Source: Oscillospiraceae bacterium
Lineage (GTDB): Bacteria; Bacillota; Clostridia; Oscillospirales; Acutalibacteraceae
NCBI GenBank assembly: GCA_902786285.1
Contig: CADABX010000009.1
Span: forward strand, 23,552 to 87,551
Length of the DNA stretch: 64,000 nt
Direction of reading: 5' to 3'
The translations under genes were made by a program, and so were the position numbers. Below the pieces are notes generated by a model. It worked only from the letters and a program-made list of their open reading frames with translations, did not search any database and was not told the origin of the DNA. This document shows positions 12,530 to 47,248 of the stretch, piece after piece. Position 1 is the stretch's first letter; every line of letters starts with the position of its first letter.

Positions 12530-12551
12530 GGGCCGAGGGCCTTGGCCCTTA
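12530..12551. repeat. Heptamer repeat, GGGCC class, palindromic
   Basis: GGGCCGA GGGCCTT GGCCCTT: 7-nt words folding back on themselves, directly after the terminator. Its last bases supply the TAA stop of the convergent ylmC (12549-12551 on the minus strand). Same word family as 19921-20087 and 47066-47248. Confidence 0.75.
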
Positions 12552-12833
12552 AAATGAAAACAGTCCGCCTTTTTCCGCGCGCGGCTCCTTTTCGGGCGGT
12601 GCGCAGCGCACAAGGATGGTGTCTTCGCCCAATACGGCGATGTCGTTCCAGGGGATGCGCAGATCCGGCTCCTTGGAAAACAGTCCGCCCTTGCGGCGCA
12701 TGTCCACAAGGATGGCGCACAGCTTGCCGTCGTGCAGATCGATCTCCACGTCCGACACAAAGCCGATGCGGCAGCCGTTTTTGGTGCTGATGACTTCCTT
12801 GCTTTGCAGCTGCGTGACACTGCAGCAGTGCAT
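12549..12833 (-). CDS. ylmC: YlmC/YmxH family PRC-barrel protein
   Basis: A 94-residue protein beginning MHCCSVTQLQSKEVI, with the PRC-barrel pattern of the YlmC/YmxH family (GCRIGFVSDVEIDLHDGKL, then DLRIPWNDIAVLGEDTILV). YlmC/YmxH proteins are widespread in spore-forming Firmicutes; their molecular role is not established. GGAGGGAT precedes the ATG (12831-12833 on the reverse strand), which is why this start is chosen over an upstream one that adds 31 non-conserved residues. The C-terminus (EKEPRAEKGGLFSF) is an extension, and the stop codon is formed by the edge of an intergenic repeat. Confidence 0.85.
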   Translation of the reverse strand: MHCCSVTQLQSKEVISTKNGCRIGFVSDVEIDLHDGKLCAILVDMRRKGGLFSKEPDLRIPWNDIAVLGEDTILVRCAPPEKEPRAEKGGLFSF

Positions 12834-12933
12834 AAGATCCCTCCGTTCGGTGATACTGACAGTGATAAGACGTCCGGCGTCGGCAAAATGAAACATCTTT
12901 TTGCCGTTTGTGTGAATTTTTGTCAAAAAAGAA

Positions 12934-12962
12934 TTGCAAAACGCAGACGTTTAAGGTACAAT
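12934..12962 (+). promoter_or_regulatory. Promoter of the Mrp gene
   Basis: TTGCAA (12934-12939), 17-nt spacer, TACAAT (12957-12962). Confidence 0.75.
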
Positions 12963-13012
12963 TATATTATTCATCCTATAGTATGCATATTCTTGAAAGG
13001 TTGTGTAATCCC

Positions 13013-13825
13013 ATGTCTTCCTGCAATGGTGATTGCGGCTCCTGCAACTCCGACTGCAAAGACCGCGATCTGACATTAAAACCCAACGAATTCAGCCATA
13101 TCGGCAAGATCTATGCCGTTGTCTCCGGTAAAGGCGGCGTCGGCAAATCGTCCGTGACCTGCATGCTCGCTTCGGCGATGCAGCAGCGCGGCAAACAGAC
13201 CGCCGTGCTCGACGCGGACGTCACCGGCCCGTCGGTACCCAAAATGTTCGGCATCCACACCCGCGCCGAAGCGGATGCGGCGGGATTGCTGCCCGTAGAA
13301 ACGAGCACGGGGATCCGCGTGATGTCGATCAATCTCCTGCTCGAAGAGGAGGACGCGCCGGTTGTGTGGCGCGGCCCGGTGATCAGCGGCGCCATTCAGC
13401 AGTTCTTTACCGAGGTTTGCTGGGGCGACGTGGACTATATGTTCGTCGATATGCCGCCGGGCACGGGCGATGTGCCGCTGACGGTGTTTCAAAGCCTCAA
13501 GGTGGACGGCATCATCGTTGTCACCACGCCGCAGGATCTGGTCGGCCTGATCGTGAAAAAGGCGGTCAACATGGCCAACATGATGCACGTGCCGGTGGTC
13601 GGCATTGTGGAAAACATGAGTGTGTTCACCTGCCCGGACTGCGGCAAGCAGCACCACATCTTCGGCGAAAGCACCGCAAAGAACGCCGCTTCGCAGCTCG
13701 GCACCGAGGTGCTCGCGTCGCTGCCGATCGATCCGCGCACGCCCGCGCTGGCCGACAAGGGCGCCATTGAGCTGGCCGACACCGACGCGCTGCAGCCGGT
13801 GGTTGAAAAGCTGTTGCAGTCATAA
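13013..13825 (+). CDS. mrp: Mrp/NBP35-type iron-sulfur carrier ATPase
   Basis: A 270-residue P-loop ATPase of the Mrp/ApbC family that holds and transfers [4Fe-4S] clusters in the cytoplasm. The deviant Walker A VVSGKGGVGKSSVT is at about residues 39-52. A cysteine-rich N-terminus (CNGDCGSCNSDC) resembles the extra cluster site of NBP35-type members. ENMSVFTCPDCGKQHHIFG carries the CxxC that bridges a cluster between subunits. VWRGPVISGAIQQF and DMPPGTGDVPLT are family signatures. The ATG at 13013 follows GAAAGG at a slightly long distance. The gene has its own promoter and stands alone between ylmC (opposite strand) and an unrelated membrane protein. Confidence 0.92.
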   Translation: MSSCNGDCGSCNSDCKDRDLTLKPNEFSHIGKIYAVVSGKGGVGKSSVTCMLASAMQQRGKQTAVLDADVTGPSVPKMFGIHTRAEADAAGLLPVETSTGIRVMSINLLLEEEDAPVVWRGPVISGAIQQFFTEVCWGDVDYMFVDMPPGTGDVPLTVFQSLKVDGIIVVTTPQDLVGLIVKKAVNMANMMHVPVVGIVENMSVFTCPDCGKQHHIFGESTAKNAASQLGTEVLASLPIDPRTPALADKGAIELADTDALQPVVEKLLQS

Positions 13826-13938
13826 ATTTTTAATATCATTTCACACAAGGTTTACACTTTTGCACACCCGAACGCACAGTTTCGGCGTATCATGAAAACA
13901 GAAACTGGGAAAGAATCCCGCACAGGAGGCATCCGCGT

Positions 13939-15096
13939 ATGAAAAAAATCATCCGGGGGATCCTGATCGGCCTGCTCGCCGTTATCGTGATCGGCGGCGT
14001 TTCGGTCTGGTTTTTCCTCTTCCACAGCAAAAAGCCCGAAATCAACACTCAGGCGTATGTGACCGACCCGCAGGGCAGCTCGTACCTCGCGGTGGTCAAC
14101 GAAGAAGGCACGACCTATGCGGCTGTGACGGACGCGCAGGGCAATATCTATGCCGCCGAGATCCAGGACAACGGTGAGATCGGCGAAAAGGTCGGCCAGA
14201 TCAACGATCAGGTGGATCTGACGGATATTCCCACCAACTACCAGGGTGCGCATATTGCGGAATCCGCCGACGTCAACGCCTTTACCGGCAATGCCGAAGT
14301 GGTGCCCGGCGCAGACACCCAGCCGGTGCAGCCGGCCAACAGCGATGTGACCGATGTGGCACAGCCCAGCAGCGAAAACACCCGGCAGGGCAGCGCCCAG
14401 TCGCCGACGCAGTCAAGCGGCAGCCAGTCGACACAGACCACAAAACAGAACACGCAAAACGGCCAGCAGGCGACCCAGCCGACCAGCGCCATTCCGGGCT
14501 ATCAGGGTCAGGCGGAGATCACCACAACCGCCGCACCCAAGACCTACCGGATCACGAAATATCAGGAGATGTTCAACACCGGCACCTATCTGATGGAGTT
14601 TAAAACAAGCGATCCAGAGCTCGGCGATTCGCCGATCACCGCGGCCGCGAAAAACGGCAACTTCGTGATCGACACCAAGATCCAGAACTACAAATGCAAG
14701 ATGCTCTATCTCGCCAAGGACAAGACGACCTATCTGATTATCGACGACTTTAAAAAGTATACCAAGCTTCCCGAAGACATGATGGGCGAGGATTTCGATA
14801 TGAGCTCCATGATGTCGAGCTTCGGCAAGGCCGTTGACACCAGCAATGTGGAGACGTCCACGGTCAAGATCGGCGACCAGACGCTCAACTGCGAAACGAT
14901 CAAGGACGACAAGGGCGAAATGCGCTATTACTTCAACGGCGACACGCTGGTGCGCATGGACTCCGTTGACAACGACGGTACGGTGGATTCCACCTATATC
15001 TCCAAGCTCACAAGCGACGTGCCCGACTCCGCGTTCCAGATCCCGAGCAATTACGGCTATCTGAACCTGTCGTGGCTCGAAGCGCTGGCAGGATAA
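13939..15096 (+). CDS. Membrane-anchored extracellular protein, possible LolA-like fold
   Basis: A 385-residue protein with one N-terminal membrane helix (IIRGILIGLLAVIVIGGVSV) and no clear cleavage site, so probably an uncleaved anchor. A short domain repeating Tyr-Val-Thr-Asp/Ala-Ala-Val-Thr-Asp phrases follows. Next comes a Gln/Ser/Thr-rich stalk (about 130-195), then a beta-rich C-terminal domain (TGTYLMEFKTSD, NYKCKMLYLAKDKTTYLIID, CETIKDDKGEMRYYFNGD). The last pattern recalls LolA/outer-membrane-lipoprotein-sorting-like folds found in Gram-positive surface proteins, but the resemblance is loose. CAGGAGG lies ahead of the ATG. Function unknown. Confidence 0.65.
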   Translation: MKKIIRGILIGLLAVIVIGGVSVWFFLFHSKKPEINTQAYVTDPQGSSYLAVVNEEGTTYAAVTDAQGNIYAAEIQDNGEIGEKVGQINDQVDLTDIPTNYQGAHIAESADVNAFTGNAEVVPGADTQPVQPANSDVTDVAQPSSENTRQGSAQSPTQSSGSQSTQTTKQNTQNGQQATQPTSAIPGYQGQAEITTTAAPKTYRITKYQEMFNTGTYLMEFKTSDPELGDSPITAAAKNGNFVIDTKIQNYKCKMLYLAKDKTTYLIIDDFKKYTKLPEDMMGEDFDMSSMMSSFGKAVDTSNVETSTVKIGDQTLNCETIKDDKGEMRYYFNGDTLVRMDSVDNDGTVDSTYISKLTSDVPDSAFQIPSNYGYLNLSWLEALAG

Positions 15097-15098
15097 GT

Positions 15099-15134
15099 AA
15101 AAAACGCTGTTGCAGTATGCAACAGCGTTTTTTA
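15099..15134. terminator. Bidirectional terminator
   Basis: A perfect 16-bp stem (15099-15114 with 15118-15133) with 3-nt loop, A-run on one side and T-run on the other. It can end the gene at 15096 and, read backwards, the convergent acetyltransferase. Confidence 0.93.
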
Positions 15135-15271
15135 GTTTACAGTTTACAGTGATGATGCAGCTTCGCTGCAGTTATGAGCACTTCGTGCGTGAATAAAACA
15201 AAACGATGGCGCCGAAGCGCCATCTCATCACTTTTTGCGCAGCAAAAATCATAACTGTAAACTGCAAACTG
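15134..15271. repeat. Inverted heptamer repeat element, AGTTTAC class
   Basis: Left arm AGTTTAC AGTTTAC AGTGATG (15134-15154); right arm ATAACTG TAAACTG CAAACTG (15251-15271), the inverse of the left. Between them lie four short hairpins with stems such as GCAGC/GCTGC, GCAC/GTGC and ATGGCG/CGCCAT, several with CTTCG-like loops. The element fills the gap between two convergent genes. The right arm is followed by a hairpin CTCCGG-TGCG-CCGGAG before the acetyltransferase stop. Confidence 0.8.
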
Positions 15272-15292
15272 AACCTCCGGTGCGCCGGAGGT

Positions 15293-16396
15293 TCACACGC
15301 TGTCCACGTGCGGGATCGACAGCGGGCACAGCGGCGCCCAGGCGTTGAACAGCGCGTTTGCCGTGGGCGCGGCAAACGGCGACGTGAGGGCCATCGTTGC
15401 GGCTTCTTTTGTCAGCGTCAGGTCTGCTTTGTCCGCGGTCGGCGCGGCGGTGCAGCAGTTGTCTTTGACGGTGACGCGCAATTTTTCGCCGTCAATGTCC
15501 AAAACGAGCGATCCCTCCGGCAGCGCACAGTGCTGCGCCTTCCAGGCGCCGAGCGTTTCAATGGTGTGGGAAAAGTTGAAAATCTTGAACATGGCCGGCG
15601 CTTCCATGGTCGGATGCTCGGCGAACTGCAGCAGTTCCCGCTGCAGTCCGATCTGCCCGGCGGTGAGCGTGACGCGCAAACTGCGCAGATGCCGGTCGCG
15701 GGCAAAACTGACCAAAACGTCGGCGGCACATACACCTTCCCCGAGCACCAGCTCGCCGATCTCGCGGCGCCAGCGCTCGTTGATCAGATAGCCGGCCACG
15801 GCGCCCGCTTCGTCGCGGACGGTCCAGCCGTGGCAGTACCAGGAGGACGCGATCAGAAAAAAGTCGTCGCGCGCCCAGCGGTAGTCCTGCGCGCTGTGCA
15901 GCGAAAGCAAATCGGGTAGGGCGCCGGGGTCCTTGCGAAACGGCAAAAAGCGATAGCGCTTTGCCGATTTGTGGCGGGCAACAAAATAGTCGCTGACCTC
16001 AAACGTATGCCTGACGCCGCCGGGCACATAGCCGTAGTGGTCGTAGCGCTGGCGGTAGCCGCTGAGATACCCCACGTCGGCGTTTTGCGCTTTGGCAATC
16101 TCGTCGCAGCAAAGCATCATGTCGCGCATATAGCCCTTGCCGCGGCAACCGGGATCGACCGCCACGGAGCCGATGCCCACGGCGTGCAGTGTGCCGTCCG
16201 GCGTTTGCAGCTCGCCCGGCCACGCGGCGATGGCGGCAACAATTTTGCCGTTTTCTTTCACAATGCGGTGGCTTTCGGTACAGACGGCCGGGTCGCGGTA
16301 CAGCTTTGGCACTTTGCGCAAAAACGGAACATGGAACACGCGGTTTTCAAACGAAAGCAGTTCATGGTAATCGGATAACGCCGCTTTTTCAATCAT
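15293..16396 (-). CDS. Eis-like GNAT acetyltransferase with SCP2-like domain
   Basis: A 367-residue cytoplasmic enzyme. The N-terminal half is a GNAT domain with the acetyl-CoA loop in VDPGCRGKGYMRDMM (about 100-115). A second GNAT-like segment follows, and the C-terminal ~100 residues (PEGSLVLDIDGEKLRVTV) resemble the sterol-carrier-protein-like domain of the Eis family. Eis proteins acetylate aminoglycosides or peptide/protein amines, often at several positions. The real substrate here is unknown. GGAGGGAT precedes the chosen ATG; a longer ORF upstream adds 66 non-conserved residues. A TTGCAA-17-TACAAT promoter drives it, divergent from the response regulator at 16663. Confidence 0.8.
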   Translation of the reverse strand: MIEKAALSDYHELLSFENRVFHVPFLRKVPKLYRDPAVCTESHRIVKENGKIVAAIAAWPGELQTPDGTLHAVGIGSVAVDPGCRGKGYMRDMMLCCDEIAKAQNADVGYLSGYRQRYDHYGYVPGGVRHTFEVSDYFVARHKSAKRYRFLPFRKDPGALPDLLSLHSAQDYRWARDDFFLIASSWYCHGWTVRDEAGAVAGYLINERWRREIGELVLGEGVCAADVLVSFARDRHLRSLRVTLTAGQIGLQRELLQFAEHPTMEAPAMFKIFNFSHTIETLGAWKAQHCALPEGSLVLDIDGEKLRVTVKDNCCTAAPTADKADLTLTKEAATMALTSPFAAPTANALFNAWAPLCPLSIPHVDSV

Positions 16397-16429
16397 GGAT
16401 GATCCCTCCGTTGTGCGTTTCTTTGGCTC

Positions 16430-16458
16430 ATTGTAACAGATTTTTTGCGCCCTTGCAA
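16430..16458 (-). promoter_or_regulatory. Promoter of the Eis-like gene
   Basis: On the minus strand TTGCAA (16458-16453), 17-nt spacer, TACAAT (16435-16430). Confidence 0.75.
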
Positions 16459-16511
16459 GCACAAGACGCCTTTTTTCCGTTCTTTCGGAAAAGGGCTTTT
16501 CGTTTTGTAAG

Positions 16512-16525
16512 AAATCTGTTATAAT
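16512..16525 (+). promoter_or_regulatory. Extended -10 promoter of the VanR-like regulator
   Basis: TGTTATAAT (TG at 16517-16518, TATAAT 16520-16525); the -35 region is poor, as expected for an extended -10 promoter. The 14 nt 16512-16525 match the -10 region of the divergent promoter (16443-16430 on the minus strand) at 13 positions. Confidence 0.65.
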
Positions 16526-16593
16526 TTTTTGGCAGGAGTTGTAAACAATCCGCGGTAAGATATCCATGGATTCGGGAAACCGCCGGCACCTCA

Positions 16594-16620
16594 TCCGTCT
16601 CGCCCGCAGGGCGAGACGGA
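16594..16620. repeat. Perfect hairpin in the leader of the VanR-like gene
   Basis: 12-bp perfect stem (16594-16605 with 16609-16620), GCA loop, no T-run, followed by AGGGGCAG. The same hairpin-plus-GACGGAAGGGG layout recurs at about 27559-27583, so it is probably an intergenic repeat module and not a dedicated regulatory structure. It lies 42 nt before the start codon and would be transcribed. Confidence 0.7.
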
Positions 16621-16662
16621 AGGGGCAGCGGCTGCTGATCCGATCTTTGAAGGAGGAGTTTC

Positions 16663-17352
16663 ATGTATCAGGTTCTGGTGTGCGACGACGACAAGGCGAT
16701 TGTGGACGCGGCGCGGATCTATCTGGAAAGCGAGGGCTATGCGGTTTTGACCGCGTATAACGGCCGCGAGGCTGTGGATATCGCAAACAAGGAGACGCTG
16801 CACTGTATCATCCTCGACATCATGATGCCCGTCATGGACGGCATCGCGGCGACGGTGGAGATCCGCAAAAGCAGTAACGTGCCGATCATTTTTCTCTCCG
16901 CCAAAAGCGAGGACACCGACAAGATCACAGGTCTGAGCCTCGGCGCGGACGACTATGTGACCAAGCCGTTTTCTCCGCTCGAGCTGCTCGCGCGGGTCAA
17001 ATCGCAGATCCGCCGCTATGTCGCGTTCGGGTCGCTGGTGGAAAAGCAGGGTGTGCTCACGACCGGCGGGCTGTCGATCGACACCGAAGCGCACCAGGTC
17101 ACCGTGGACGGAGAGGAAGTGCATCTGACCGCCACGGAATACAAGATCGTGGAATACCTCATGCGCAACATGGGCCGCACGCTGTCGAGCACGCAGATCT
17201 ATGAAAACGTGTGGAACGAAAACGCGTTTGCGTCCGACAAAACCGTGACGGTGCACATCCGGCGCATCCGCGAAAAGATCGAGATCGATTCACGCAATCC
17301 GAAATATCTGAAGGTGGTGTGGGGCATTGGATACAAAATCGAAAAAATTTGA
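16663..17352 (+). CDS. VanR-like OmpR-family response regulator
   Basis: A 229-residue two-domain regulator. The receiver domain has the acidic pocket (CDDD), phosphoacceptor Asp52 in IILDIMMPVMDG, and Lys in TKPFSP. The C-terminal winged helix (about 130-229; LTATEYKIVEYLMRNMGRTLSS, then SDKTVTVHIRRIREKIE) is of OmpR/VanR type. The sequence ends GIGYKIEKI as in VanR-like proteins. AAGGAGGA precedes the ATG. The kinase gene overlaps by 26 nt but is broken, so this regulator may now lack its cognate sensor. Target genes are unknown; the Eis-like gene is divergent and shares a promoter inverted repeat. Confidence 0.92.
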   Translation: MYQVLVCDDDKAIVDAARIYLESEGYAVLTAYNGREAVDIANKETLHCIILDIMMPVMDGIAATVEIRKSSNVPIIFLSAKSEDTDKITGLSLGADDYVTKPFSPLELLARVKSQIRRYVAFGSLVEKQGVLTTGGLSIDTEAHQVTVDGEEVHLTATEYKIVEYLMRNMGRTLSSTQIYENVWNENAFASDKTVTVHIRRIREKIEIDSRNPKYLKVVWGIGYKIEKI

Positions 17353-19910
17353 CCGTACATGGGTCACAAAAACGATCGCCTTTCTGCTGGCGGTGGTACT
17401 CACGGCATACGCGGCGGTCAACACCGTGGGCACGCTGTGGGATCTGCACGAAACGACGGAGGGCATCAGCATCTATCTGGAGGATGTTTTGCGCGGCGTC
17501 GGGAAAGACGACCTGACAAAAACAACGGCATTTGCCAACGAAACCCGGACGGTGGAAGATCTGGCGCTGCAGCGCTATCTCTATGGCGACGGCAGCGAAA
17601 CGGCGTATGCGGCCTATTTGGAAAACGGGGAAAACGCACAGGCGACTTATGTTGAAAACTACAGCCGGACAGTGCTGCAAAACTGTTTGGGCGTCAGCGG
17701 ACACGGTTCGCCCGTGGCGCTGCAGCGGTACTTGAACGACGGTATAATCACGCTCGAAAAGATTACCGACCATTCGAAGCACTTTGTGCAGGGTCACATT
17801 TATGTTTCGGACGGTGACTATTCTTATGAGGACACGGATGGAAACGAGGAATATTATGACACCGGCTGGATAGAAGCAAGCGAAGCCTACGACGGGGAAG
17901 ATACGTTTCCGACAACCACGTTCATTGCCACGGAATCGCAGGCATTTCCGAACACGGACTTCAATTTTCAAAGCAGCTTTGCTATCCCGCAGTCGGTGAC
18001 AAAACAGCTCAAAGACGGCGAAGTTGCCGTGGAGCTTTGCCACACGAATCTGGACTACGGGCGTTCGGGTGTGCAGACCTATGACGGCTACTATGCGCTG
18101 AAGATCAACAATCGCGCCATTGCTGCGCGCGCTGACGTGAACAGAACGAATTATGGGCAATCTTTCGATTCCTTTGAGTCGTTCCATACGACTTACGAGA
18201 TCGCCCGTAAAGAGGCGAACAAATATAAAAACATGCAGTTTGCCGTTGTGGATAACCGCACCGGTCTGGTCGTCTCCAATGTTGCAAAACTGGACGGCAA
18301 GACGCTGACACAGGGTGATCTGGAGCAGTTCACGAAAGCAAAATGGTATTTCAGCATCGACCTGCTCAGTGGCGCGCGGACGTTTTCCAAAGCGGCGCAA
18401 AAGACCGCGGACAGCAGCAGCTATCTGCGCGATAGCCTGACGTACTTTTTAACAGAGGGCGAACTCAACGGCACGCTGTATGTGTCGTTTGACGAAAGCC
18501 TTGCGGCAAAGGATGTGTTCCGCACCCATCGAACCGTCTATCAAGGCGTATATGAAACGGTTGCCAATGTGGTGAAGCTGGATCTGATCTGCCTTGCCGG
18601 CATTCTGCTGTGTCTGGTCTATCTTGTGATCCGTGCCGGCCGCCGGCACGATGACGACGAACTCCACATGCTGCCGCTTGACCGGATCTTTACGCTGCTG
18701 CGTCTGGCGCTGCATGTCAGCGCGATTGCCGGCGTGGTTGCGCTGGCGGTGTGGTTTTTCGACGAGCTTGTCGGCCAGCACTGGTTGGTGGCAACGCCAC
18801 TGGTGCATACCTTCGTCGCCCTGTGCGCCGCGGTGGTGATGGCGATCTTCATTGACGGGCTGCTGTTTGTCGTCCGCCACATCAAGGCGCACACGCTGCT
18901 CAAGAACCTCTTCCTCGTGTGGCTCATCCGCAAGATCCGCACGTGGTACAAGGCGTACCGGGAAGCGCATCCCAAAAAAGAAAAGCAGCCGGTGGAATAC
19001 GCCGACCTTTATAAAGACGCGAAAAAGCGCGTGCTGCTCTTCGGCTTTTTGCCGAACGCCGTTCTCGGCATCCTCGTCGTGATCTTCATGGCCTCCGAGG
19101 CGCAGTTCCTTGCCGTTCCGCTGTTGTTTGTCATCTTCGGCTACGACGTGTGGCTGGCGGTCTACGCGCTGCGCTACGCCTACCGTGTGCGCGCCGGGAT
19201 CGAAGCCGTGCACCGCATCCGCGGCGGCGACTATGACGTGCATCTGGCCGTCGACGACCGCAGTCCCGCGCTGGCCGTGTTTGCCCGCGACGTCAATTCG
19301 ATCAACGACGGACTGCGCATCGCCGTTTCCAATGCGATCAAGGACGAGCACATGCGCACCGAGCTGATTACCAACGTGTCGCACGATCTCAAAACGCCGC
19401 TGACGAGCATCATCAATTATGTCGATCTGCTCTCGCGCGAAGAGCTGCCGGATCCGCGTGGATCTTGTGGATCTGCGGCTGGCGGAGCTGGCGAACCAGA
19501 TCGCCGGCGAATACGAAGACGCGTTCCGCGAGCGAAACCTCGAGCTGATTACGTCGGCGGACAGCGATGTGGTCGTCCGCGCCGACAGCAAGCTGTGCTA
19601 CCGCGTGCTCGATAATCTGATGAACAACGTCAAAAAATACGCCATGCCCGGCACGCGCGTCTATCTCAGTCTGACACAGGAGGACACCTGGGGCGTGTTG
19701 ACGCTGCTGAATGTGTCGCAGACGCAGCTCAATATCCCGGTGGAGGAGCTGATGGAGCGCTTTGTGCGCGGCGACGCGTCGCGTTCCACCGACGGCAGCG
19801 GCCTCGGCCTTTCGATCGCGCAAAACCTGTGTGAGCTGCAGGGCGCAAAGCTGGAGCTTTCCATCAGCGGCGATCTGTTTACCGCGAAGGTGAAGTTTCA
19901 AAAAGCGTAG
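17327..19910 (+). pseudogene. Sensor histidine kinase, broken by internal deletion and frameshift
   Basis: Starts at a TTG inside the regulator gene. Residues up to about 710 form a multi-helix sensor: one N-terminal helix, a long extracellular part, then about five helices. They end in the dimerisation helix with the phospho-His in ITNVSHDLKTPLT (about residue 686). After DLLSREELPDP near 19455 the frame is lost. The ATPase part continues in another frame (RVDLVDLRLAELANQ onward) with the N box DNLMNNVKKYAM, and a GSGLGLSIAQN G box to the stop at 19910. Comparison with VanS-like kinases suggests about 35-40 residues (second dimerisation helix) are missing at the junction, so this is more than a single-base slip. 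An assembly error is possible. Confidence 0.8.
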
Positions 19911-19920
19911 AATGAGTGAA

Positions 19921-20088
19921 GGGCCAAGGGCCGAGGGCCGAGGGACGCGATGAAACAAATCATGCCTTTTTAAGATTCTCCGCGAAAAAATGACCGCCAC
20001 ACCCAACGGTATGGCGGTTTTTCTTATGGCAAGCCGATCTGTACGGTTGAAATCCCTTGGCCCTATGCCCTCGGCCCTTGGCCCTCAG
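19921..20088. repeat. Inverted heptamer repeat element, GGGCCAA class
   Basis: Left arm GGGCCAA GGGCCGA GGGCCGA GGGACGC (19921-19948); right arm TTGGCCC TATGCCC TCGGCCC TTGGCCC (20057-20084). About 108 bp lie between, including a terminator. The element occupies the whole gap between the broken kinase and the convergent dehydrogenase, whose TGA stop (20085-20087) abuts the right arm. The left arm shares GGGCCGAGGGACGCG with the element at 47066-47248. Confidence 0.85.
19993..20022. terminator. Terminator inside the convergent gap
   Basis: Stem 19993-20003 with 20008-20018 (one mismatch), CAAC loop, T-run to 20022; A-run upstream makes it usable in both directions. Confidence 0.75.
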
Positions 20089-21044: not shown

Positions 21045-21075
21045 AGGGATCATCCTTTCAGCGGTCGTTTTTCCC

Positions 21076-27452: not shown

Positions 27453-27862
27453 TTGCATAAAAATAGCGCCCGTAGCGTCGAATACGATGCTGCCGCAGGC
27501 AGCCACCGAAGACGCCGTCCCCAGCGCACGCAGTGCGCGTTGGGGAAGGTGTCAGTGCGCCAAAGCGCACTGACGGAAGGGGGTCGATCGACTGGGCGCG
27601 GACGTTATGGCAATTTAGCCGATCACTGATCGGCGCTACAATGTGGACGGCGAAGAAAAAAGCCGAACACTGATCGGCGCTACAAGGAACGCCCGGAAAA
27701 AAAGGCGGGCGACCACGCAGGGTCGCCCCTACGCGACAAAAACCAAACCGCTTCCCTTCGCGGGTGTGTGTTTCGGCTTTGTAAAACCTGCTTCGCGTCC
27801 CTAGCCCCTAGCCCCTCAATCCCTTCCCTTGTTCTGTTTCGCAACGCTTTTGCATAAAAATA
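27453..27862. repeat. Non-coding repeat cluster between the fucosidase and asnS
   Basis: A gene-free stretch (27364-27989). Its contents are: a 14-nt direct repeat TTTGCATAAAAATA at 27452-27465 and 27849-27862; two strong hairpins (about 27515-27545 and 27550-27573); two near-identical copies of CACTGATCGGCGCTACAA (27624-27641, 27668-27685); a hairpin GGGCGACC/GGTCGCCC (about 27705-27731); and heptamers CCCTAGC CCCTAGC CCCTCAA (27799-27819). The GGGCG(A/G)CC..GG(T/C)CGCCCCTAC module recurs at 63833-63863. No ORF with coding character was seen. It looks like stacked REP-like elements. Confidence 0.75.
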
Positions 27863-31599: not shown

Positions 31600-31712
31600 A
31601 TTCCGGTTTGCGTCGCTGTTTTCGATCACCGCGAAAAGACGACCCAGCCGCCCGACACCCCGCCCGAAAACCCGTAACCAATTAGGTAAGCCAGTTTGTC
31701 AAAGCAACCCGC

Positions 31713-31745
31713 TGTCGACTGATGACTGTCGACTGTTGACTGCAC
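31713..31745. repeat. Heptamer repeat, TGTCGAC class
   Basis: TGTCGAC TGATGAC TGTCGAC TGTTGAC TGCAC in exact 7-nt register, ending just before the SD of the glycosylase gene. The flanking 31600-31712 shows no gene. Confidence 0.85.
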
Positions 31746-38671: not shown

Positions 38672-38905
38672 CAGTTATATTCGCCTGCGGCGAGTTTTAT
38701 TGCGTTGCAGTTATTATGAGCGAAGCGAATAACAAGGTTCTGCCCGCAGGGCAGGTTCTTATATTCGGCTTGCGCCGAGTGATATTGCGCTGCGCGCAGT
38801 TTGATGGCGAATAGAATATCACTTTGCGGCACAGCCGCAAAATTTAACTGTCCCGAAGGGACAATAGAACTGCGCCGCAGGCGCAATATCACTTGAAAAG
38901 CTTTC
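38672..38905. repeat. Chain of short hairpins
   Basis: At least eight consecutive small palindromes, for example CGCC-TG-CGGCG, CCTGCCC-GC-AGGGCAGG, TTTGCGGC-ACA-GCCGCAAA, TGTCCC-GA-AGGGACA and TGCGCC-GC-AGGCGCA, joined by AT-rich links such as AATATCACTT and TTATATTC. The same linker (GCAATATCA) occurs at 63904-63912. No gene was seen. It resembles the composite REP-like repeats of GC-rich gut Firmicutes. The following 38906-38950 is featureless. Confidence 0.75.
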
Positions 38906-38950
38906 AGTCTTATGATATACTTTGCGCGGGGTGCGTACAATGTCAGATAG

Positions 38951-39112
38951 CGTTGGCTTGAATTGCTGTTTGAAACCGGATATATGGATGAGCAAACGTA
39001 CAAACCAATTCAGAACAACTGCGGTGCAATCAGACGTATGCTGATTTCATCTATCAAAACCATAAAAGAAAAATATTTCAACAAATCAGTAGGTGAGGAA
39101 ACCGATTTATGA
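38951..39112 (+). pseudogene. Remnant of a four-helix-bundle (S23-type) protein
   Basis: In frame from 38951 to a TGA at 39110-39112 the translation RWLELLFETGYMDEQTY, then IRRMLISSIKTIKEKYFN, matches the C-terminal third of the four-helix-bundle proteins first known from 23S rRNA intervening sequences, where the usual text reads like YWLELLYKTGYI...LTSIIKT. A stop precedes it directly at 38948, and no N-terminal part can be found upstream. Its end overlaps the next gene's ATG by 4 nt. AT-rich like that gene, so both may have arrived together. Confidence 0.6.
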
Positions 39113-40310: not shown

Positions 40311-40331
40311 GTTGTCTGCGGCTTCAGCACA

Positions 40332-40354
40332 CGCGGCGTTTGCCGCGCTTTTTT
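40332..40354 (+). terminator. Second intrinsic terminator
   Basis: CGCGGC-GTTT-GCCGCG followed by C and six T. Confidence 0.65.
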
Positions 40355-40617
40355 ATGCCTTTTTTGCCGGTTGCGGCGACAGGGAAGCGGATGGATTATT
40401 TTTCCGAAATAGAATCATGGTGTCCGGAAAAGCGGACTTTGCGCACGCAAATGTGAACAATTTATGAAATTGTCAATTTTGTTGCAGGTTTTCCGCACAA
40501 AAACGGCTTCTCGGGCCTTATTATGGGAGGACTTTTTTCCGGTGACTTAAAACACCGGACACTTTTTGCGGCATCGCCGCGCGGTCAGAACCGATATTTT
40601 TCGAAAGGAGTTTTTCT

Positions 40618-41091: not shown

Positions 41092-42377
41092 CCCCGGCCT
41101 TCCGTTCGTTTTCCGAAAAGCAGACCACGGTGCTCTCCTGGTGGCACCCGTCGTCGCCCTACGCACAAAAGGATGCGATCATCTGCGACGGCGCGGTGCG
41201 CAGCGGCAAAACGACCTGCATGGCGCTGTCATTCGTCCTTTGGGCGTTCTTTTCGTTTCATGACGGCATGTTCGCGCTGTGCGGCAAAACAATCACGTCG
41301 CTGCGGCGCAACATTGTGGAGTCGCTGCTGGCGCTGCTGCGCTCGCTCGGCTTTTGTGTGCAGGAAAAGCTGTCGCAAAACAAGATCACGCTCTCGTTCG
41401 GCGGCCGCGAAAACCGGTTTTACCTTTTCGGCGGGCGCGACGAAGCGTCGGCGTCGTTCATTCAGGGCATGACGCTTTGCGGCGTTTTGTTTGACGAAGT
41501 GGCGCTGATGCCGCGCTCGTTTGTGGAGCAGGCGCTCGCGCGCTGCTCCGTGGCGGGTGCAAAGTTCTGGTTCAACTGCAACCCGGAGCATCCGCAGCAC
41601 TGGTTTTATCAGACGTGGATCCAGCAGGCAGACAAACGCAACTGTCTGTATCTCCATTTTCTGATGACCGACAACCCGTCGCTGAGCGAAGATGTGATCC
41701 GCCGCTACGAGTCGCTGTATACCGGCGCGTTTTACGACCGGTTCATCCGCGGCAAATGGGTGGCGGCCGAAGGGCTCGTCTACCCCGAAGCGGCGGCCGG
41801 TGCGTTCACCAAAGCGCCGCCGGCAGACAAAGCCGAACGGTGGGTCGTCTCGTGCGATTACGGCACGGTCAACCCGATGAGCATGGGGCTTTGGGGCAAA
41901 TTCGGCGACAGCTGGTACCGCGTGCGGGAGTATTATTACGATTCCAAAGCGGAAGGCCGGCAGAAAACGGACGAAGAATACTACGACGACCTGTGCGATC
42001 TGACCGCAGATCTTGCGGTCGAGTGCGTGGTGGTCGACCCGTCCGCGGCGTCGTTCCTTGCCACACTGCGCGCCCACAAAAAGTTTAGAGTTCTCCCCGC
42101 CAGAAACGACGTTTTGCCCGGCATCCGCCGGGTGCATGAGGCGTTTCGGCAACACAGACTGTTCATCTCCCCGGCCTGCACGGCGGCACTGCGTGAGTTT
42201 TCGCTCTACCGCTGGGCAGAAAACGAATCGAAGGACACCGTCTTAAAAGTCCACGACCACGCGATGGACGATATCCGCTATTTCGTTTCCACGATTCTTT
42301 CACAGCAGACGCAGACGCCGTTTATTGCGATTGCGGTGGACCGGGCGGACGGACAGAACACCCACAGAAAGGAGTAA
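41088..42377 (+). CDS. terL: Phage terminase large subunit
   Basis: A 429-residue packaging motor and nuclease. Walker A GAVRSGKTT (about 38-46), Walker B CGVLFDEVALM and the coupling stretch FWFNCNPEHPQHWFY form the ATPase. The C-terminal RNase H-like nuclease carries acidic residues in VSCDYGTVNP, CVVVDPSAASF and HDHAMDDIRYF. All key residues remain, so the motor could be active. It starts within the terS stop (ATGA). Confidence 0.93.
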   Translation: MTPAFRSFSEKQTTVLSWWHPSSPYAQKDAIICDGAVRSGKTTCMALSFVLWAFFSFHDGMFALCGKTITSLRRNIVESLLALLRSLGFCVQEKLSQNKITLSFGGRENRFYLFGGRDEASASFIQGMTLCGVLFDEVALMPRSFVEQALARCSVAGAKFWFNCNPEHPQHWFYQTWIQQADKRNCLYLHFLMTDNPSLSEDVIRRYESLYTGAFYDRFIRGKWVAAEGLVYPEAAAGAFTKAPPADKAERWVVSCDYGTVNPMSMGLWGKFGDSWYRVREYYYDSKAEGRQKTDEEYYDDLCDLTADLAVECVVVDPSAASFLATLRAHKKFRVLPARNDVLPGIRRVHEAFRQHRLFISPACTAALREFSLYRWAENESKDTVLKVHDHAMDDIRYFVSTILSQQTQTPFIAIAVDRADGQNTHRKE

Positions 42378-42381
42378 TCGT

Positions 42382-43542
42382 TTGGCAATCGGAAAAAAGA
42401 AAACGCCGCCGTCGGGCGGCACAGCCGTTGCGTCGCCGCAAACCGGCAAACACACCCACCCCTACGGGATGCTCTCGTCGCTCGCCGTGAGCCGCGCCGG
42501 GTCGCTCGAATTGTTCCGGCTGCTGCGCGAGGCGGTGCCGATCATCGACGCCGCCGTGATGAAGACCGTGCGGCTGCTGGGTACGTTTGACGTCTGCTGC
42601 GACGATCCGCGGGCCCAGACGGCGCTGCGCCGGTTTTTGCGCACGGTGCCGGTCGGCTCGCTGCGATACGGGATCGACGCGTTTTTGTCCACCTATTTCG
42701 AACAGCTTCTGACCTACGGTACCGCCATCGGCGAAATGGTGCTGACCGACGGACATCTGACGGATCTTTACAACGCCGATCTGCGCCGCGTGGCGCTCAG
42801 CTTCGGCGACAGTCCGCTGGATATCATCGTCAGCGCACAGGACGACAAGGGCCATTTCAGCCCGGTGCCCTGGCCGGCGCTGATCCTCAAAAGCGTCCAC
42901 GACCCCGAACCCGGCGCGGTTTACGGCACGTCGATCCTCAAGGGCCTGCCGTTTGTCAGCAATATTCTGCTGACCGTTTTTCAGACCACCGGCGTCAACT
43001 GGGAGCGGCTCGGCAATGTGCGCTTCGCCGTGACCTACAAGCCGCAGAACGACGCGCTGGACAAGGCCTATGCCGCCGACCGCGCAAAACAGATCGCCGA
43101 GGCCTGGAGCACCGCGATGCGCGAGGAGGGCGCCGTGCGCGACTTTATCGCCGTGGGCGACGTGCAGGTGCAGGCCATCGGCAGCGACAACCAGATCCTG
43201 TCCAGCGAAATCCCGGTGCGCCAGCTATTGGAACAGATCGTTGCAAAGCTCGGTATCCCGCCGTTTTTGCTGGGTCTGAGCTGGTCGACCACGGAGCGCA
43301 TGAGCTCGCAGCAGGCGGATATCCTCACCAGCGAGATCGACGCCTACCGGCGCGAGCTCGAGCCGGTGGTGCTGCAGATCTGCAACACGTTTTTGCGCCT
43401 GGAAGGGTTCGACTGCCCGGTTTCGGTCGACTGGGAGCCGTTGACGCTGCAGGACATCACGGCGCTGTCGCAGTCGGCGCTGCTGGACGCACAGACAGAA
43501 AAAATCAGACGCGAGATCGGAGAAGACAAGCATGACATTTGA
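42382..43542 (+). CDS. Phage portal protein
   Basis: A 386-residue protein with a TTG start 7 nt behind AAAGGAG. The pattern (FLSTYFEQLLTYGTAIGEM; later LGLSWSTTERMSSQQADILTSEIDAYRRELEP) fits portal proteins, the dodecameric ring at the capsid vertex through which DNA is pumped. An upstream longer reading frame starts inside terL and is not preferred. Overlaps the next gene by 11 nt. Confidence 0.85.
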   Translation: MAIGKKKTPPSGGTAVASPQTGKHTHPYGMLSSLAVSRAGSLELFRLLREAVPIIDAAVMKTVRLLGTFDVCCDDPRAQTALRRFLRTVPVGSLRYGIDAFLSTYFEQLLTYGTAIGEMVLTDGHLTDLYNADLRRVALSFGDSPLDIIVSAQDDKGHFSPVPWPALILKSVHDPEPGAVYGTSILKGLPFVSNILLTVFQTTGVNWERLGNVRFAVTYKPQNDALDKAYAADRAKQIAEAWSTAMREEGAVRDFIAVGDVQVQAIGSDNQILSSEIPVRQLLEQIVAKLGIPPFLLGLSWSTTERMSSQQADILTSEIDAYRRELEPVVLQICNTFLRLEGFDCPVSVDWEPLTLQDITALSQSALLDAQTEKIRREIGEDKHDI

Positions 43543-44467
43543 TATCGAACAGGAACTCGAACAGATCAATCAGTACACCCGCAAGGCGGTGGCGCAGGAC
43601 GACGTGTATATCTTTACACTGACGCTGTGCGACAACGAAGTGGACCGCGATTTCGAACGCTTTACGCCCGAAGCGCTCGCACAGCTCGCAGAACTGTTTA
43701 AGGGCAAGACCGGGCTGTTTGACCATAGCTGCAAAAGCGAGCAGCAGTCGGCGCGTGTGTTTGCCACCTGGGTGGAAGCCGACCCGGTGCGCAAAACGAG
43801 TCAGGGCGAACCCTACACGACACTCAAGGCGCGCGCCTATATGATCCGCACCAAAGAAAACGAGGCGCTGATCGCCGAGATTGAGGGCGGGATCAAAAAG
43901 GAGGTCAGCGTCGGCTGCGCCATGGGCTCGCTTTGCTGCTCCGTGTGCGGCGCCGACCGCCGTACCGAAGGCTGCGACCACCGCAAGGGACACACCTATA
44001 ACGGTCAGCTTTGCCACGATGTGCTGCGTGACGCACGCGACGCCTATGAATGGTCGTTTGTCGCCGTGCCGGCGCAGCGCGAGGCGGGCGTGACCAAAGC
44101 ATTTTTGAAGGAGGCACCCATGAAACCCGATATTCTCGAAACCGTGAAGGCGGCGGACAATGGCCTGTCGCTTTCCAAACCGCAGCTCCGACAGTTGCAA
44201 AAGGAGATCGCACAGCTCGAGCAGGCCGGCGCAGAGGCGGCCGCCTATCGCGCAAAGCTGCTTTCTGAAATCGGCCGCGGCGTGACGCTCGCGCTGCCGC
44301 AGATCGACAAGTCGCTGTTTCTCGAAGGTTGCAAGGCGATGCACGCGCAGGACCTCGAGCGCCTTTGCGACACGCTGAACAAGCAGACAAGGGATATGCA
44401 GCGCCGCCCGCAGCTGTTTGCAAAAACCGAACAGACACCGACCGACAACCAAGCATTTTGTATTTAA
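43532..44467 (+). CDS. Putative capsid maturation protease-scaffold with zinc-knuckle insertion
   Basis: A 311-residue protein between portal and capsid, the usual place of the prohead protease. The N-terminal part (TLTLCDNEVDRDFERFTPEAL, KTGLFDHSCKS, IKKEVSVGCAMGS, AYEWSFVAVPAQREAGV) resembles the protease-like phage proteins in which a His and Ser form the active site. A cysteine cluster CCSVCGADRRTEGCDH about residues 131-146 looks like a metal-binding insertion. From about 195 on the chain is helical and charged, as in a scaffold (delta) domain. SD GGAGAAG. Catalytic residues are only inferred (His in FDHS, Ser in EVSVG). Confidence 0.65.
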   Translation: MTFDIEQELEQINQYTRKAVAQDDVYIFTLTLCDNEVDRDFERFTPEALAQLAELFKGKTGLFDHSCKSEQQSARVFATWVEADPVRKTSQGEPYTTLKARAYMIRTKENEALIAEIEGGIKKEVSVGCAMGSLCCSVCGADRRTEGCDHRKGHTYNGQLCHDVLRDARDAYEWSFVAVPAQREAGVTKAFLKEAPMKPDILETVKAADNGLSLSKPQLRQLQKEIAQLEQAGAEAAAYRAKLLSEIGRGVTLALPQIDKSLFLEGCKAMHAQDLERLCDTLNKQTRDMQRRPQLFAKTEQTPTDNQAFCI

Positions 44468-44481
44468 CAGGAGGTACGACT

Positions 44482-45498
44482 ATGGCAGCATTTGAAAACA
44501 TCAAACTCGAAAAAGGTCTTTACACAACCGGCAAATCCTTTACCCAGGCGCTCGAAGCGCTCGACCCGTCCGAAAACTATATCGGCACGCCGCTCGAGGG
44601 CCTCGACGCCTATCAGCGCCAGCTCAAGCGTTTTGACATCAAGGTCAGCGGCCGCGGAAGCGACCGGGTGGAAAAATTCTTCAAAACCACCGATTCCGCC
44701 GCGCTGTTTCCGGAATACGTCAGCCGCGCTGTCTGGGCAGGCGTGGAGGAAAACAACCTGCTTCCGAACATCGTGGCGACCGTGACGGATATCGAAGGGC
44801 TCGACTACCGCACGATTGCGTCCACGCTCTCGGACGAAGACAACGACGCCGCCCATGAGATCGGCGAGGGCGAAGAGATTCCGACCACCGTCATCAACAC
44901 CACCGAGCATCTGGTTTCGCTCAAAAAACGCGGCCGCATGCTGGTTGCGTCCTATGAGGCGATCCGCTTCCAGCGCCTGGACCTTTTTACCGTGGCGCTG
45001 CGCCAGATCGGCGCCTATATTGCGCGCCGACAGCTCCAGGACGCCGTGAACGTGCTGATGAACGGCGACGGCACCGGCAACGACAACGCCATCACCACCA
45101 CCTCCACCGCCGCGTCCGGCACGCTGAGCTACAGCGACCTTGTCGATCTTTGGAACAGCTTTGACCCCTATACGCTCAACGCGATCATCGCGTCGCCCAC
45201 GGCGATGGCGCAGATCCTCAAGCTGTCCGAAATGCGCGACGGCACCGCCGGGCTCAACTTCCACGCCTCGGGCAACCTCGTCACACCGTTTGGCGCCCAG
45301 CTGATGAAAAGCAGCGCCGTGGACAGCGGCAAGCTGATCGGCCTTGACAACACCTGCGCACTCGAACAGGTGCAGGCCGGCGGCATTCTGACGGAATTCG
45401 ACAAGCTGATCGACCGCCAGCTCGAACGCGCGGCTGTGACAAGCATCACGGGCTTCGCCAAGATCTATACCGGCGCGTCCAAGGCGCTGTCGATGTAA
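44482..45498 (+). CDS. Major capsid protein (HK97 fold)
   Basis: A 338-residue protein behind AGGAGGT. The text SAALFPEYVSRAVWAGVEEN, then EIGEGEEIPTT and KKRGRMLVASYEAIRFQRLD, with the late segment AVTSITGFAKIYTGASKAL, fits HK97-fold capsid proteins of Clostridial siphophages. The N-terminal arm of about 65 residues could be the part trimmed during maturation. It is the shell subunit; the intact frame supports assembly potential. Confidence 0.85.
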   Translation: MAAFENIKLEKGLYTTGKSFTQALEALDPSENYIGTPLEGLDAYQRQLKRFDIKVSGRGSDRVEKFFKTTDSAALFPEYVSRAVWAGVEENNLLPNIVATVTDIEGLDYRTIASTLSDEDNDAAHEIGEGEEIPTTVINTTEHLVSLKKRGRMLVASYEAIRFQRLDLFTVALRQIGAYIARRQLQDAVNVLMNGDGTGNDNAITTTSTAASGTLSYSDLVDLWNSFDPYTLNAIIASPTAMAQILKLSEMRDGTAGLNFHASGNLVTPFGAQLMKSSAVDSGKLIGLDNTCALEQVQAGGILTEFDKLIDRQLERAAVTSITGFAKIYTGASKALSM

Positions 45499-45508
45499 GG
45501 AGGCGCCT

Positions 45509-45868
45509 ATGGACGCAACGCAGGTGCTGGCCGTGTTGAGAGGGATCCGCCTGTTTGACGAGATCCCGGAACAGGTTTTGCTGCTCGAAAGCGTCCGTGC
45601 GCTCGGCGAAGTCAAAGAACAACTGCGTGACGGTGCGGACGAAAGTGATCCGCGCGTTGCGCAGACCGCCGCCGCACTGGCGCGCTACCGGCTGTTTTGC
45701 AACATGCTCGAGGGCGGCGACCGGTTTTCGAGCTACAAGGCCGGCGACATCACGATCGCCCGCGATCTGAAGGCGGAGTTTGAACTGGAACGGCAGCTGC
45801 GGCAGCAGGCGCTGCTGGACGCTGTGCCCATCTTAAAGGACGGAGGGTTCTTCGTTGCGGTACAATAA
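45509..45868 (+). CDS. Probable head-tail connector protein
   Basis: A 119-residue, largely helical protein behind AAGGAGG, directly after the capsid gene. Position, size and helical character match head-completion (gp6/adaptor-type) proteins that bind the portal ring. Sequence identity to a named family was not recognised, so the call rests mainly on context. Confidence 0.6.
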   Translation: MDATQVLAVLRGIRLFDEIPEQVLLLESVRALGEVKEQLRDGADESDPRVAQTAAALARYRLFCNMLEGGDRFSSYKAGDITIARDLKAEFELERQLRQQALLDAVPILKDGGFFVAVQ

Positions 45869-46211
45869 AAACATCACCCTGCCTTTTTTCAAAAAGTTCG
45901 GGCGCACCATGACCTATACCGATCCGCACGGCAGCGTGGAATTCAAAGCGTTTTTGCAGCCGCTGCGCTACAAAAACAAGATGTATCTGAGCGGCACGCT
46001 GACCGAGATCGGCTACGACACGCTGCGCAAATTCGTTTTGATCTGCCCGGTGTCGGTCAACATTCCGGCTGTGGACGGCACACGCGCCACGCTGGTGTTT
46101 GACGGCGATTCGTTTTGCGTGGACCATTGCGAAAAGGTCTTTTTCGGCGAAACGCCGCTGTATTACTGGGCGATCGTGCACCAGAACAACGACTGGAGGG
46201 TGACGGTATGA
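45855..46211 (+). CDS. Probable head-closure protein
   Basis: A 118-residue beta-rich protein with a TTG start preceded by GGAGGG, overlapping the previous gene by 14 nt. The order connector then small beta-rich protein matches stopper/head-closure proteins in siphophages (SPP1 gp16-like). No decisive motif. Ends in a 4-nt overlap with the next gene. Confidence 0.5.
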   Translation: MRYNKNITLPFFKKFGRTMTYTDPHGSVEFKAFLQPLRYKNKMYLSGTLTEIGYDTLRKFVLICPVSVNIPAVDGTRATLVFDGDSFCVDHCEKVFFGETPLYYWAIVHQNNDWRVTV

Positions 46212-47032
46212 CAACAGCCAATCTCGTGCGCGAAATCGTAACGATGATCAATACGCAGGTGCTCGACGACCTCGACACCGTGGAGGCGGTGCTCTCGTTT
46301 GACGACCGCACCGTGCCGCAGCCGCTGACCAAGATCTACTTCGCCTTTCTCATCGGCGAAGACACCGTGTCGCTGCTGGAGGACAGCACGCAATACGCCT
46401 GCCAGATGACGGATCTGACGATCTCCATGAACTGCTATGCGCCGCCGGGAGAAAACGCGATCGACATCGCCGCCCACGCGGAGGCCGTTCTGGGCAAGGT
46501 CAACGAGAATTATGCGGGACTGATGACAGGCTACGAGATCGGTACCGCCGCAATCGACGACTATCTCAAGGCGCTCAAGGTGCCGTGCAGGATGTTCTTT
46601 AAATTTGAGCAGTGTCCGGCGTTTCAGATCAGCGATTCCGTGATTTTGCCGTTTGCCGATTTCATGTGCAAAACGCATGTGATGGACACCACGCTCCATC
46701 TTTCGGCGGCCGAACGCGAACAGATCAGCACGCCCTATGCCGTCGGGACCTATGTGGGTCTCGGCGCGTATAACCCCGTGACGGTGGCGCTGGCGTTCAC
46801 GCCGCGTGCGGTGCTGATTTTTCCGGTGAACGATGCGCCGTTTTCGCTCGACACGGCGCACAACACCTTTCTTTGCCGCACTGCCGTGGCGGCGTCGGGC
46901 GTCAGCGACAGCCTTATCACGCTGCAAAGCGGCGGCTTTCGCGTCAGCCAGCCCGAAACGGTCCCCTATGACAGCGCCATCCGCTCGCTCAACGAATCAA
47001 ACCGGACGTACGGCTACGTCGCGTTCCGGTAA
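46208..47032 (+). CDS. Last phage structural gene, tail-terminator-like N-terminus
   Basis: A 274-residue protein. Residues 1 to about 140 (helical start, then QMTDLTISMNCYAPPGENA and an alpha/beta pattern) are compatible with a tail-terminator or completion protein. The remaining half (TPRAVLIFPVNDAPFSLDT, ending SNRTYGYVAFR) reads like the beta-rich distal domain seen in phage and tailocin proteins. A two-part protein at the point where tail genes should begin is unusual. It is followed by a terminator 4 nt after the stop. Confidence 0.5.
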   Translation: MTTANLVREIVTMINTQVLDDLDTVEAVLSFDDRTVPQPLTKIYFAFLIGEDTVSLLEDSTQYACQMTDLTISMNCYAPPGENAIDIAAHAEAVLGKVNENYAGLMTGYEIGTAAIDDYLKALKVPCRMFFKFEQCPAFQISDSVILPFADFMCKTHVMDTTLHLSAAEREQISTPYAVGTYVGLGAYNPVTVALAFTPRAVLIFPVNDAPFSLDTAHNTFLCRTAVAASGVSDSLITLQSGGFRVSQPETVPYDSAIRSLNESNRTYGYVAFR

Positions 47033-47036
47033 CAAC

Positions 47037-47062
47037 AAAAGCGCCCGCAAGGGCGCTTTTTT
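47037..47062 (+). terminator. Terminator ending the phage cassette
   Basis: AAAAGCGCCC-GCAA-GGGCGCTTTT (47037-47060) plus T-run to 47062. Confidence 0.9.
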
Positions 47063-47065
47063 GGA

Positions 47066-47248
47066 GGGCCAAGGGCCAAGGGATAAGGGCCGAGGGACGC
47101 GGAGAAAAGCGTTGCAACGGGAAACGCCGTACCGCGCCGGAAAGCGCATCAAAAGTTTTGAACGCAAAGTCGTTGCGTGGTCGCATCCTTTTGTTTGCCC
47201 GCAATACGAAGCGCGTTCCCTTTCCTCTATGCCCTTGGCCCTGGGCCC
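47066..47248. repeat. Inverted heptamer repeat element, GGGCCAA class
   Basis: Left arm GGGCCAA GGGCCAA GGGATAA GGGCCGA GGGACGC (47066-47100); right arm TATGCCC TTGGCCC TGGGCCC (47228-47248). About 127 bp between the arms show no gene. It lies between the phage cassette and convergent yebC, flanked by a terminator on each side. The arms share words and order with the element at 19921-20088. Confidence 0.85.

Follow-up and report, generated by a model that had tools for sequence, protein, structure and literature searches.

Heptamer repeats and intervening sequences already described

The intervening sequence in the 23S rRNA of Coxiella burnetii is 428 nt long, has terminal inverted repeats and carries an S23 frame, and the available portion of its description places three GACAGAT heptamers before that frame, in two or three copies depending on the strain (PMC4990558). 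Tandem heptamers are also in print for Xanthomonas (GGGAATC) and Nostoc (GGGGAYT), where they are mostly intergenic; the accessible extracts of that paper record close convergent array pairs in 70 cases (186 arrays) in Xcc and 75 cases (183 arrays) in Xac, and cite three heptanucleotides from Calothrix PCC 7601 (PMC4692102). TAACTGA heptamers of Beggiatoaceae, Cyanobacteria and Bacteroidetes are described in PMC4679880 as direct repeats that lie close to start codons and act in regulation; the author considers a mobile origin for them. A search of the text at hand for S23 gave 0 matches in PMC4692102 and 0 in PMC4679880. Here we describe heptamer arrays in a 64,000-nt stretch (the window) of an Oscillospiraceae genome (G000; assembly GCA_902786285.1, contig CADABX010000009.1, positions 23,552 to 87,551), and we consider it quite likely that these 7-nt arrays come from small selfish elements akin to 23S rRNA intervening sequences, either as their inverted terminal arms or as solo arm remnants.

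The coding form of such an element is best read as a heptamer arm, one S23/IVP four-helix-bundle gene (PF05635, ~100-140 aa) and the same heptamers inverted, and most arrays in the window's own genome are best read as single arms or as gene-less copies resembling miniature inverted-repeat transposable elements (MITEs). Cyanobacterial heptamer repeats go by the name STRR, and like the arrays here they comprise several 7-nt words per genome; we found no account of their origin, and S23 genes on plasmids of Nostoc, Calothrix and Anabaena are enclosed by heptamer arms of this type. With the Coxiella intervening sequence the elements have in common the protein family (PF05635), a similar size, terminal inverted repeats and heptamers before the gene, whereas the window elements are intergenic, lying between protein genes and not in a 23S rRNA helix, with many words per genome and most copies gene-less. 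The Xanthomonas and Nostoc heptamers have the same 7-nt period, but were chosen as one word and, in the extracts available, studied as quadruplex-forming repeats (PMC4692102); the TAACTGA repeats, as far as their available description goes, resemble the elements here in their short intergenic 7-nt arrays and patchy distribution. The initial annotation of the window was right to compare its repeats with STRR-type heptamers, but its statement that no counterpart was described was too strong, the accessible parts of two papers already giving the Xanthomonas heptamers, also in inverted pairs (PMC4692102), and those of the Coxiella intervening sequence (PMC4990558). Our search of the open-access literature, with subscription journals mostly outside it, found no paper joining intergenic heptamers to S23 genes.

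Inverted heptamer arms around S23 genes

Autocorrelation against shuffled sequence, a check set beforehand, confirmed that the intergenic DNA of this genome has tandem repeats with a strict 7-nt period. Across 12 stretches of the genome picked without regard to repeats (148 gaps, 39,673 intergenic bases, window excluded), all of which begin at a contig start, a position where repeats often interrupt assembly, lag 7 yielded 15 matching runs of 10 nt or longer, whereas shuffled sequence averaged 0.1 (never more than 1 in 20 shuffles). Lags 14 and 21 gave 9 and 7 runs, and the remaining lags from 3 to 30 gave 0-2 each, except lag 24 with 6; coding DNA (197,640 bases) had 1 run at lag 7, and the window alone had 6 versus 0.0 shuffled. 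The words are numerous (AATTCGG, AGGGCCA, AGTTTAC, AGTGCAC, AATTCTT, GCTAACT and others), and arrays stand in inverted pairs in 8/10 cases in the window and 9/19 in the own-genome sample. GGGCC arrays also lie near contig ends of G000 (C14:899, C51:169, C54:123, C62:168), so the assembly may break there and the counts may be lower bounds.

The cause came from comparing orthologous gaps, as the initial annotation had proposed: in two sister species an S23 gene lies between heptamer arms. The gap between infB and rbfA holds the same AATTCGG element in G000 and in its relative G009, other heptamers in several members of the genus, and nothing in many. In G012 and G019, heptamer arms in this gap enclose a small open frame that matches PF05635 (23S rRNA-intervening sequence protein) at 140 and 138.8 bits (cut-off 33.8) and also TIGR02436 (four helix bundle protein). 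In a DNA-level search of 34 genomes from the genus, the AATTCGG element proved to be a dispersed family whose longest matches stop at the arms. Three intact S23 genes above the cut-off were found in the window's own genome (L206, L207 and L208), L207 enclosed by AATTCGG arms and L206 by AGTCAGC/AGTTAGC arms; most arrays in the genome lie outside these three genes. An arm and a subterminal palindrome are common to L207, to the G009 element L220 and to the window's gene-less AATTCGG element (where the palindrome is on the right side), which is, judging by its sequence, a gene-less relative of the coding element in the same genome. Separately, three AATTCGG-arm matches at an even 154-bp spacing (G041:C41:67277, 67431 and 67585) are perhaps a tandem array of the element.

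We then surveyed 117 S23 genes for arrays within 300 bp of the gene, calling a pair when a 7-mer of one side lay within 1 mismatch of the reverse complement of the other. Lag-7 inverted arms flanked the gene on both sides at 66/117 loci and on one side at 21/117, with none at 30/117. The first 77 loci contributed 49 pairs (24/32 genus, 15/29 phylum, 10/16 plasmid), 12 one-sided cases and 16 without arrays; 40 further genus loci contributed 17, 9 and 14, respectively. Control windows 1 kb off had 2/147 pairs and 17 one-sided arrays for the first set and 0/70 and 3 for the second (2/217 and 20 overall), and other lags were equally poor in pairs (2 in 693 tests over nine lags for the first 77 loci, both at lag 8; 0 in 280 tests over seven lags for the 40-locus set). 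These loci cover 72/109 genus matches (L300, L301 and L303 were left out, L302 overlaps L355, and L158 was only read), 29 phylum loci among the matches listed (45/249 phylum genomes had a match) and 16/27 plasmid records, 14/16 of the plasmid loci being cyanobacterial, including Nostoc, Calothrix and Anabaena; the genomes are drafts. Wherever arrays stood on both sides (66 loci), their words matched, with a perfect 7-mer in 62. The distance between left and right arms, 0.58 compared with 3.11 from element to element, is partly forced by the picking of pairs, so we compared swapped loci instead, and the left arm of one locus matched the right arm of another in 788/4290 combinations. Paired elements were 408-771 bp long (median 490; 7/66 exceed 600). 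On cyanobacterial plasmids we also noted S23 genes between cas6 and cas4 and within a cmr operon, in the latter case with no 7-nt arms detected (L270, L271, L278).

Plain heptamer microsatellites would explain the period without any element, if DNA polymerase is prone to slip by 7-nt units and such repeats are tolerated between genes, the former being a hypothesis cited from earlier work in the extracts of PMC4692102. Those extracts report a heptamer excess for many bacteria, and the available part of PMC4990558 has unit number differing between Coxiella strains. Slippage alone, however, yields neither same-word inverted arrays of fixed polarity around one gene family nor dispersed copies with homology ending at the arms; the S23 association thus largely refutes this account, which we hold to be very unlikely, and slippage may still act inside arms.

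S23 elements were also found within structural RNA genes. Among S23 loci in 23S rRNA, L252 and L261 have paired arms, L257 and L265 have one-sided arrays, and L281 has none. At L259 and L262 (1229-2003; genomes G096 and G169) a paired-arm S23 element lies within the RNase P RNA gene, with the whole of the Rfam model RF00010 matched by the sequence on either side of the insert.

The arms have a fixed polarity. In 65 of the 66 paired elements (one was lost to a protein-length filter, here and in the word-protein analyses), left arms had AG > CT in 52/65 and the reverse in 2, with 11 ties; 20 pairs (window, own-genome sample, GGGCC loci; one left arm enters twice) gave 15 to 0 with 5 ties. Only this polarity and the two-clade split below were tested, a word grammar from by-eye rotations having been dropped as nearly trivial. 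The S23 gene is mostly in the sense of its surroundings: in the first 77 loci it was co-oriented with both neighbours at 22/25 genus loci (both neighbours called) and opposed to both at 0, at 18/24 phylum loci and opposed at 1, and, by annotation, at 10 plasmid loci, with 3 against both, 1 mixed and 2 unannotated.

Such a sense-strand bias would fit insertion via RNA, with the S23 protein, as a relative of the diversity-generating retroelement (DGR) accessory protein Avd, working with a reverse transcriptase encoded elsewhere in the genome. The relation is distant: two S23 proteins match bAvd PF22296 just above the cut-off of 40 (45.9 and 41.8 bits), the L207 protein falls under it, and NF033474 scored under its own cut-off. 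Against a retroelement, RVT_1 occurs in only 6/34 same-genus genomes and in none of the element-bearing G000, G009, G012 and G019 (genomes incomplete; completeness of G000 is 90%). The distribution of RVT_1 thus leaves a reverse transcriptase acting in trans unsupported, and we consider this explanation scarcely probable.

Heptamer word and S23 protein vary together. Mean word distance climbs with protein distance from 0.70 (<0.2) to 3.51 (>0.8), the random expectation being 3.29, and the Mantel correlation of word with protein was 0.47 overall and 0.64 for the genus, with 0/2000 permutations as high; within two protein clades it was 0.63 and 0.20. These clades carry AGN-type versus AAN-type words in ratios of 29:4 (1 tie) and 2:25 (4 ties). 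This co-variation bears on a DNA transposon of known type, in which the arms would be terminal inverted repeats for a trans-acting transposase and the S23 gene a passenger. Dispersed copies with terminal inverted arms, gene-less derivatives, occupancy that varies among near relatives, and nested arms at L035:9585-9760 (outer GGGCC-type, inner AATGAAG/AATTCTT-type, with CCTAGTT units between) would all suit a transposon; but the words vary too widely for one transposase to bind readily, the word follows the S23 protein, and no target duplication was seen at the compared sites. We regard such a transposon as unlikely. The AATTCGG family resembles MITEs in being gene-less and dispersed, with terminal inverted repeats common to a coding element, and differs in that no target duplication was seen at the sites compared and the ends are tandem heptamers whose word differs by family; for the GGGCC family, no coding element with the same ends was found among the loci examined.

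Elements of the window and turnover among relatives

The features of the window are as follows.

12529..12549, no strand: very short fused GGGCC-type arm pair (AGGGCCGAGGGCC / TTGGCCCT) in a convergent gap, read in the sequence and under the array threshold
15134..15271, no strand: AGTTTAC-armed noncoding element (arms 15134-15150 and 15253-15271), directly 3' of a terminator in a convergent gap; RNA fold z -5.6
19919..20086, no strand: GGGCCNA-armed noncoding element (arms 19919-19944 and 20054-20086) in a convergent gap; RNA fold z -6.9
27799..27816, no strand: CCCTAGC solo right-type array, 18 nt only
31712..31742, no strand: solo right-type array GACTGTC/GACTGAT, immediately 5' of a gene start
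38891..39046, + strand: decayed PF05635 (23S_rRNA_IVP / S23) gene fragment with 2 stop codons, near two tRNA genes
47065..47249, no strand: GGGCCNA-armed noncoding element (arms 47065-47096 and 47231-47249) in a convergent gap, flanked by two terminators; RNA fold z -5.0
54203..54473, no strand: AATTCGG-armed noncoding element (arms 54203-54234 and 54442-54473) between infB and rbfA; RNA fold z -9.3
63862..63886, no strand: solo right-type array ACTGCAC/ACTGCAA, detected as an array

Four of these sites are inverted arm pairs enclosing 102-207 bp; in the AATTCGG element one arm repeats the other exactly in inverted form, down to the deviant unit AATGCGG. None of the four contains an S23 gene, and Rfam covariance models matched only the two tRNAs in the window and nothing at the elements. 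The decayed fragment (G000:C9:62442-62597; locus L209) scored 22.8 bits to PF05635, under the cut-off, and matched L229 at 63% over 41 aa by tblastn; no heptamer array was detected beside it at threshold 8. All the 7-nt sites of the initial annotation could be read in the sequence and, apart from 12529-12549 and 2633, were detected as arrays: the first is a fused arm pair below the array threshold, and the TTTACAG site at 2633 is degenerate and gave no detection at threshold 9. The annotation took the single period over unrelated words to suggest a common generating mechanism or a structural role; the period does point to one source, best read as descent from S23-gene elements with inverted arms.

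The sites had further been held to mark convergent gene ends. Counting gaps of at least 30 nt holding an array, we found 3/4 convergent, 3/21 tandem and 0/4 divergent gaps in the window (convergent 4/4 if 12530 is included), and 5/22, 8/89 and 1/27 in the own-genome sample. The enrichment is therefore present, at roughly 2:1:0 across the three types; convergent pairs of at least 30 nt called in the window number four and not five, and a simple gene finder placed the end of the gene preceding 19919 at 19615 instead of 19910. Array incidence tracks how many genes end in a gap (two, one or none), which accounts for the convergent preference without any special role; we rejected a device for convergent genes on this ground and because elements also occur in tandem gaps inside operons (infB-rbfA). 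More broadly, inverted heptamers might be 3'-end or transcript-isolation devices kept by host selection at gene ends; the arrays are positioned after gene ends, and all four paired window elements have long stems in predicted RNA (z -5.0 to -9.3). Such selection sits poorly with an infB-rbfA gap lacking an array in 73/79 cases (one of the six matches being a poly-C run), with sister species that differ in word at the same site, with arrays inside operons and with arm mismatches that have no G-U excess (see below), and we hold it the least probable of the explanations considered.

A general hairpin target beside the arms was also rejected: the 45 nt before the left arm had a mean fold energy of -7.9 against -7.5 in 290 controls, and the energy after the right arm was weaker (-4.6), hairpins being prominent only in the window's own clade. 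As a separate observation, the post-stop hairpin in that clade is built from the final ~14 bases of the gene upstream, copied in inverse orientation, and varies between species along with the gene end (infB-rbfA gap in L158, L159, L161, L163 and L164; L207 site in L305 and L306).

Comparison of close relatives suggests that elements come and go and that a site can be occupied more than once. Where G000 has L207, G009 retains a single AATTCGG array without the gene, and the gene-less element of G011 and G012 has a similar palindrome between AGTTAGC arms. The 15134 site has the same element in G009 and other heptamer-bearing sequences in G012 and G011, and the 19919 site has no heptamers in G009, where the flanks are 97.5% identical upstream and 88.9% identical over 81 nt downstream. 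Another site holds S23 elements in five species. Two of these, L216 and L219, have flanks 95% and 91% alike but proteins alike at 90/127 residues and different words, and given flanks so similar beside a diverged protein, we rejected word drift at one orthologous site in favour of apparent re-occupation; two other elements at the same site have proteins 119/120 alike. Near-identical same-genome copies fetched for element ends proved to be rRNA operons (G163, G104, G228) and were discarded.

Two other repeats in the window are set apart from these elements: a (CATA)8 tetranucleotide array at 2767-2799, ~110 bp before the gene at 2907 and possibly phase-variable, and rows of small CTTCG-type hairpins with TGATGA/TGAAATA-like spacers (window 15150-15240 and 38690-38900; L034:12800-12930), an intergenic repeat of another type.

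Proposed mechanism and wider meaning

Several observations weigh against descent of the arrays from S23 elements. The 30/117 S23 genes without a 7-nt array within 300 bp include L208, an intact gene (one of three) in the genome of the window itself, and L281, inserted in 23S rRNA, where the right side has only degenerate units by eye. The period itself is not invariable: lag-8 pairs occur at plasmid loci L277 (Gemmatirosa) and L280 (the latter also at lag 7), and at the phylum loci L256 and L258 lag-11 arrays flank the S23 gene on both sides, not inverted, by eye (AAACGATAGTT). The S23 loci were mostly the best-scoring match per genome and not a random draw, and they are kin to one another and not independent, so permutation and p-values overstate the case. 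Word and protein, whose co-variation is weak in one clade (r 0.20), may vary together through shared ancestry instead of recognition. Comparison of occupied with other sites in G009, G011 and G012 gave no target-site duplication, the gap differing as a whole. The GGGCC-armed elements, 2 of the window's 4 pairs, are grouped here by form alone: 20 GGGCC loci (L186-L205) had no S23-like match, and the genus S23 elements examined (72/109 matches) had no GGGCC word. Finally, arm mismatches comprised 61 G-U versus 57 A-C (p 0.78), so RNA pairing is not evidently what keeps the arms alike; we rejected selection for such pairing, this lack of a wobble excess favouring, without proving, copying at the DNA level.

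Taking the arrays as arms of S23 elements, we propose that an S23 protein recognises the arm of its own element and has a part in spreading that element. The 7-nt period would be inherited and not generated afresh, whole-unit slippage and copying between arms would keep the word uniform within an element, and words would drift between elements. The arms could pair in RNA as a long stem; rRNA intervening sequences are excised by RNase III at such a stem, and excision of this kind could make a sense-strand insertion harmless. Solved S23-family structures 2gsc (XCC0516, presumably from Xanthomonas campestris) and 2rld have five chains each, and we take both to be pentamers.

More tentatively, S23-type four-helix-bundle proteins may represent a widespread class of minimal mobile elements without a known transposase or polymerase, the protein reading its own heptamer word and both drifting together. 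Intergenic heptamers throughout bacteria, the cyanobacterial STRRs and the GGGAATC pairs of Xanthomonas among them, would then derive from these elements and their gene-less remains, and the intervening sequences of rRNA would simply be copies that landed in rRNA genes; we put this forward as a possibility slightly on the doubtful side.

The finding joins two separate puzzles, the over-representation of heptamers between bacterial genes and the nature of rRNA intervening sequences and their S23 protein, with heptamers serving as the ends of S23 elements that lie between protein genes as well as of those inserted in 23S rRNA and RNase P RNA. It suggests a mobile element without a recognised mobility enzyme, and a common protein family of unknown function gains a likely partner in its own heptamer. 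Found in a gut bacterium, these elements offer an origin for heptamer repeats that have been puzzling in other bacteria, and that origin becomes testable in any complete genome.

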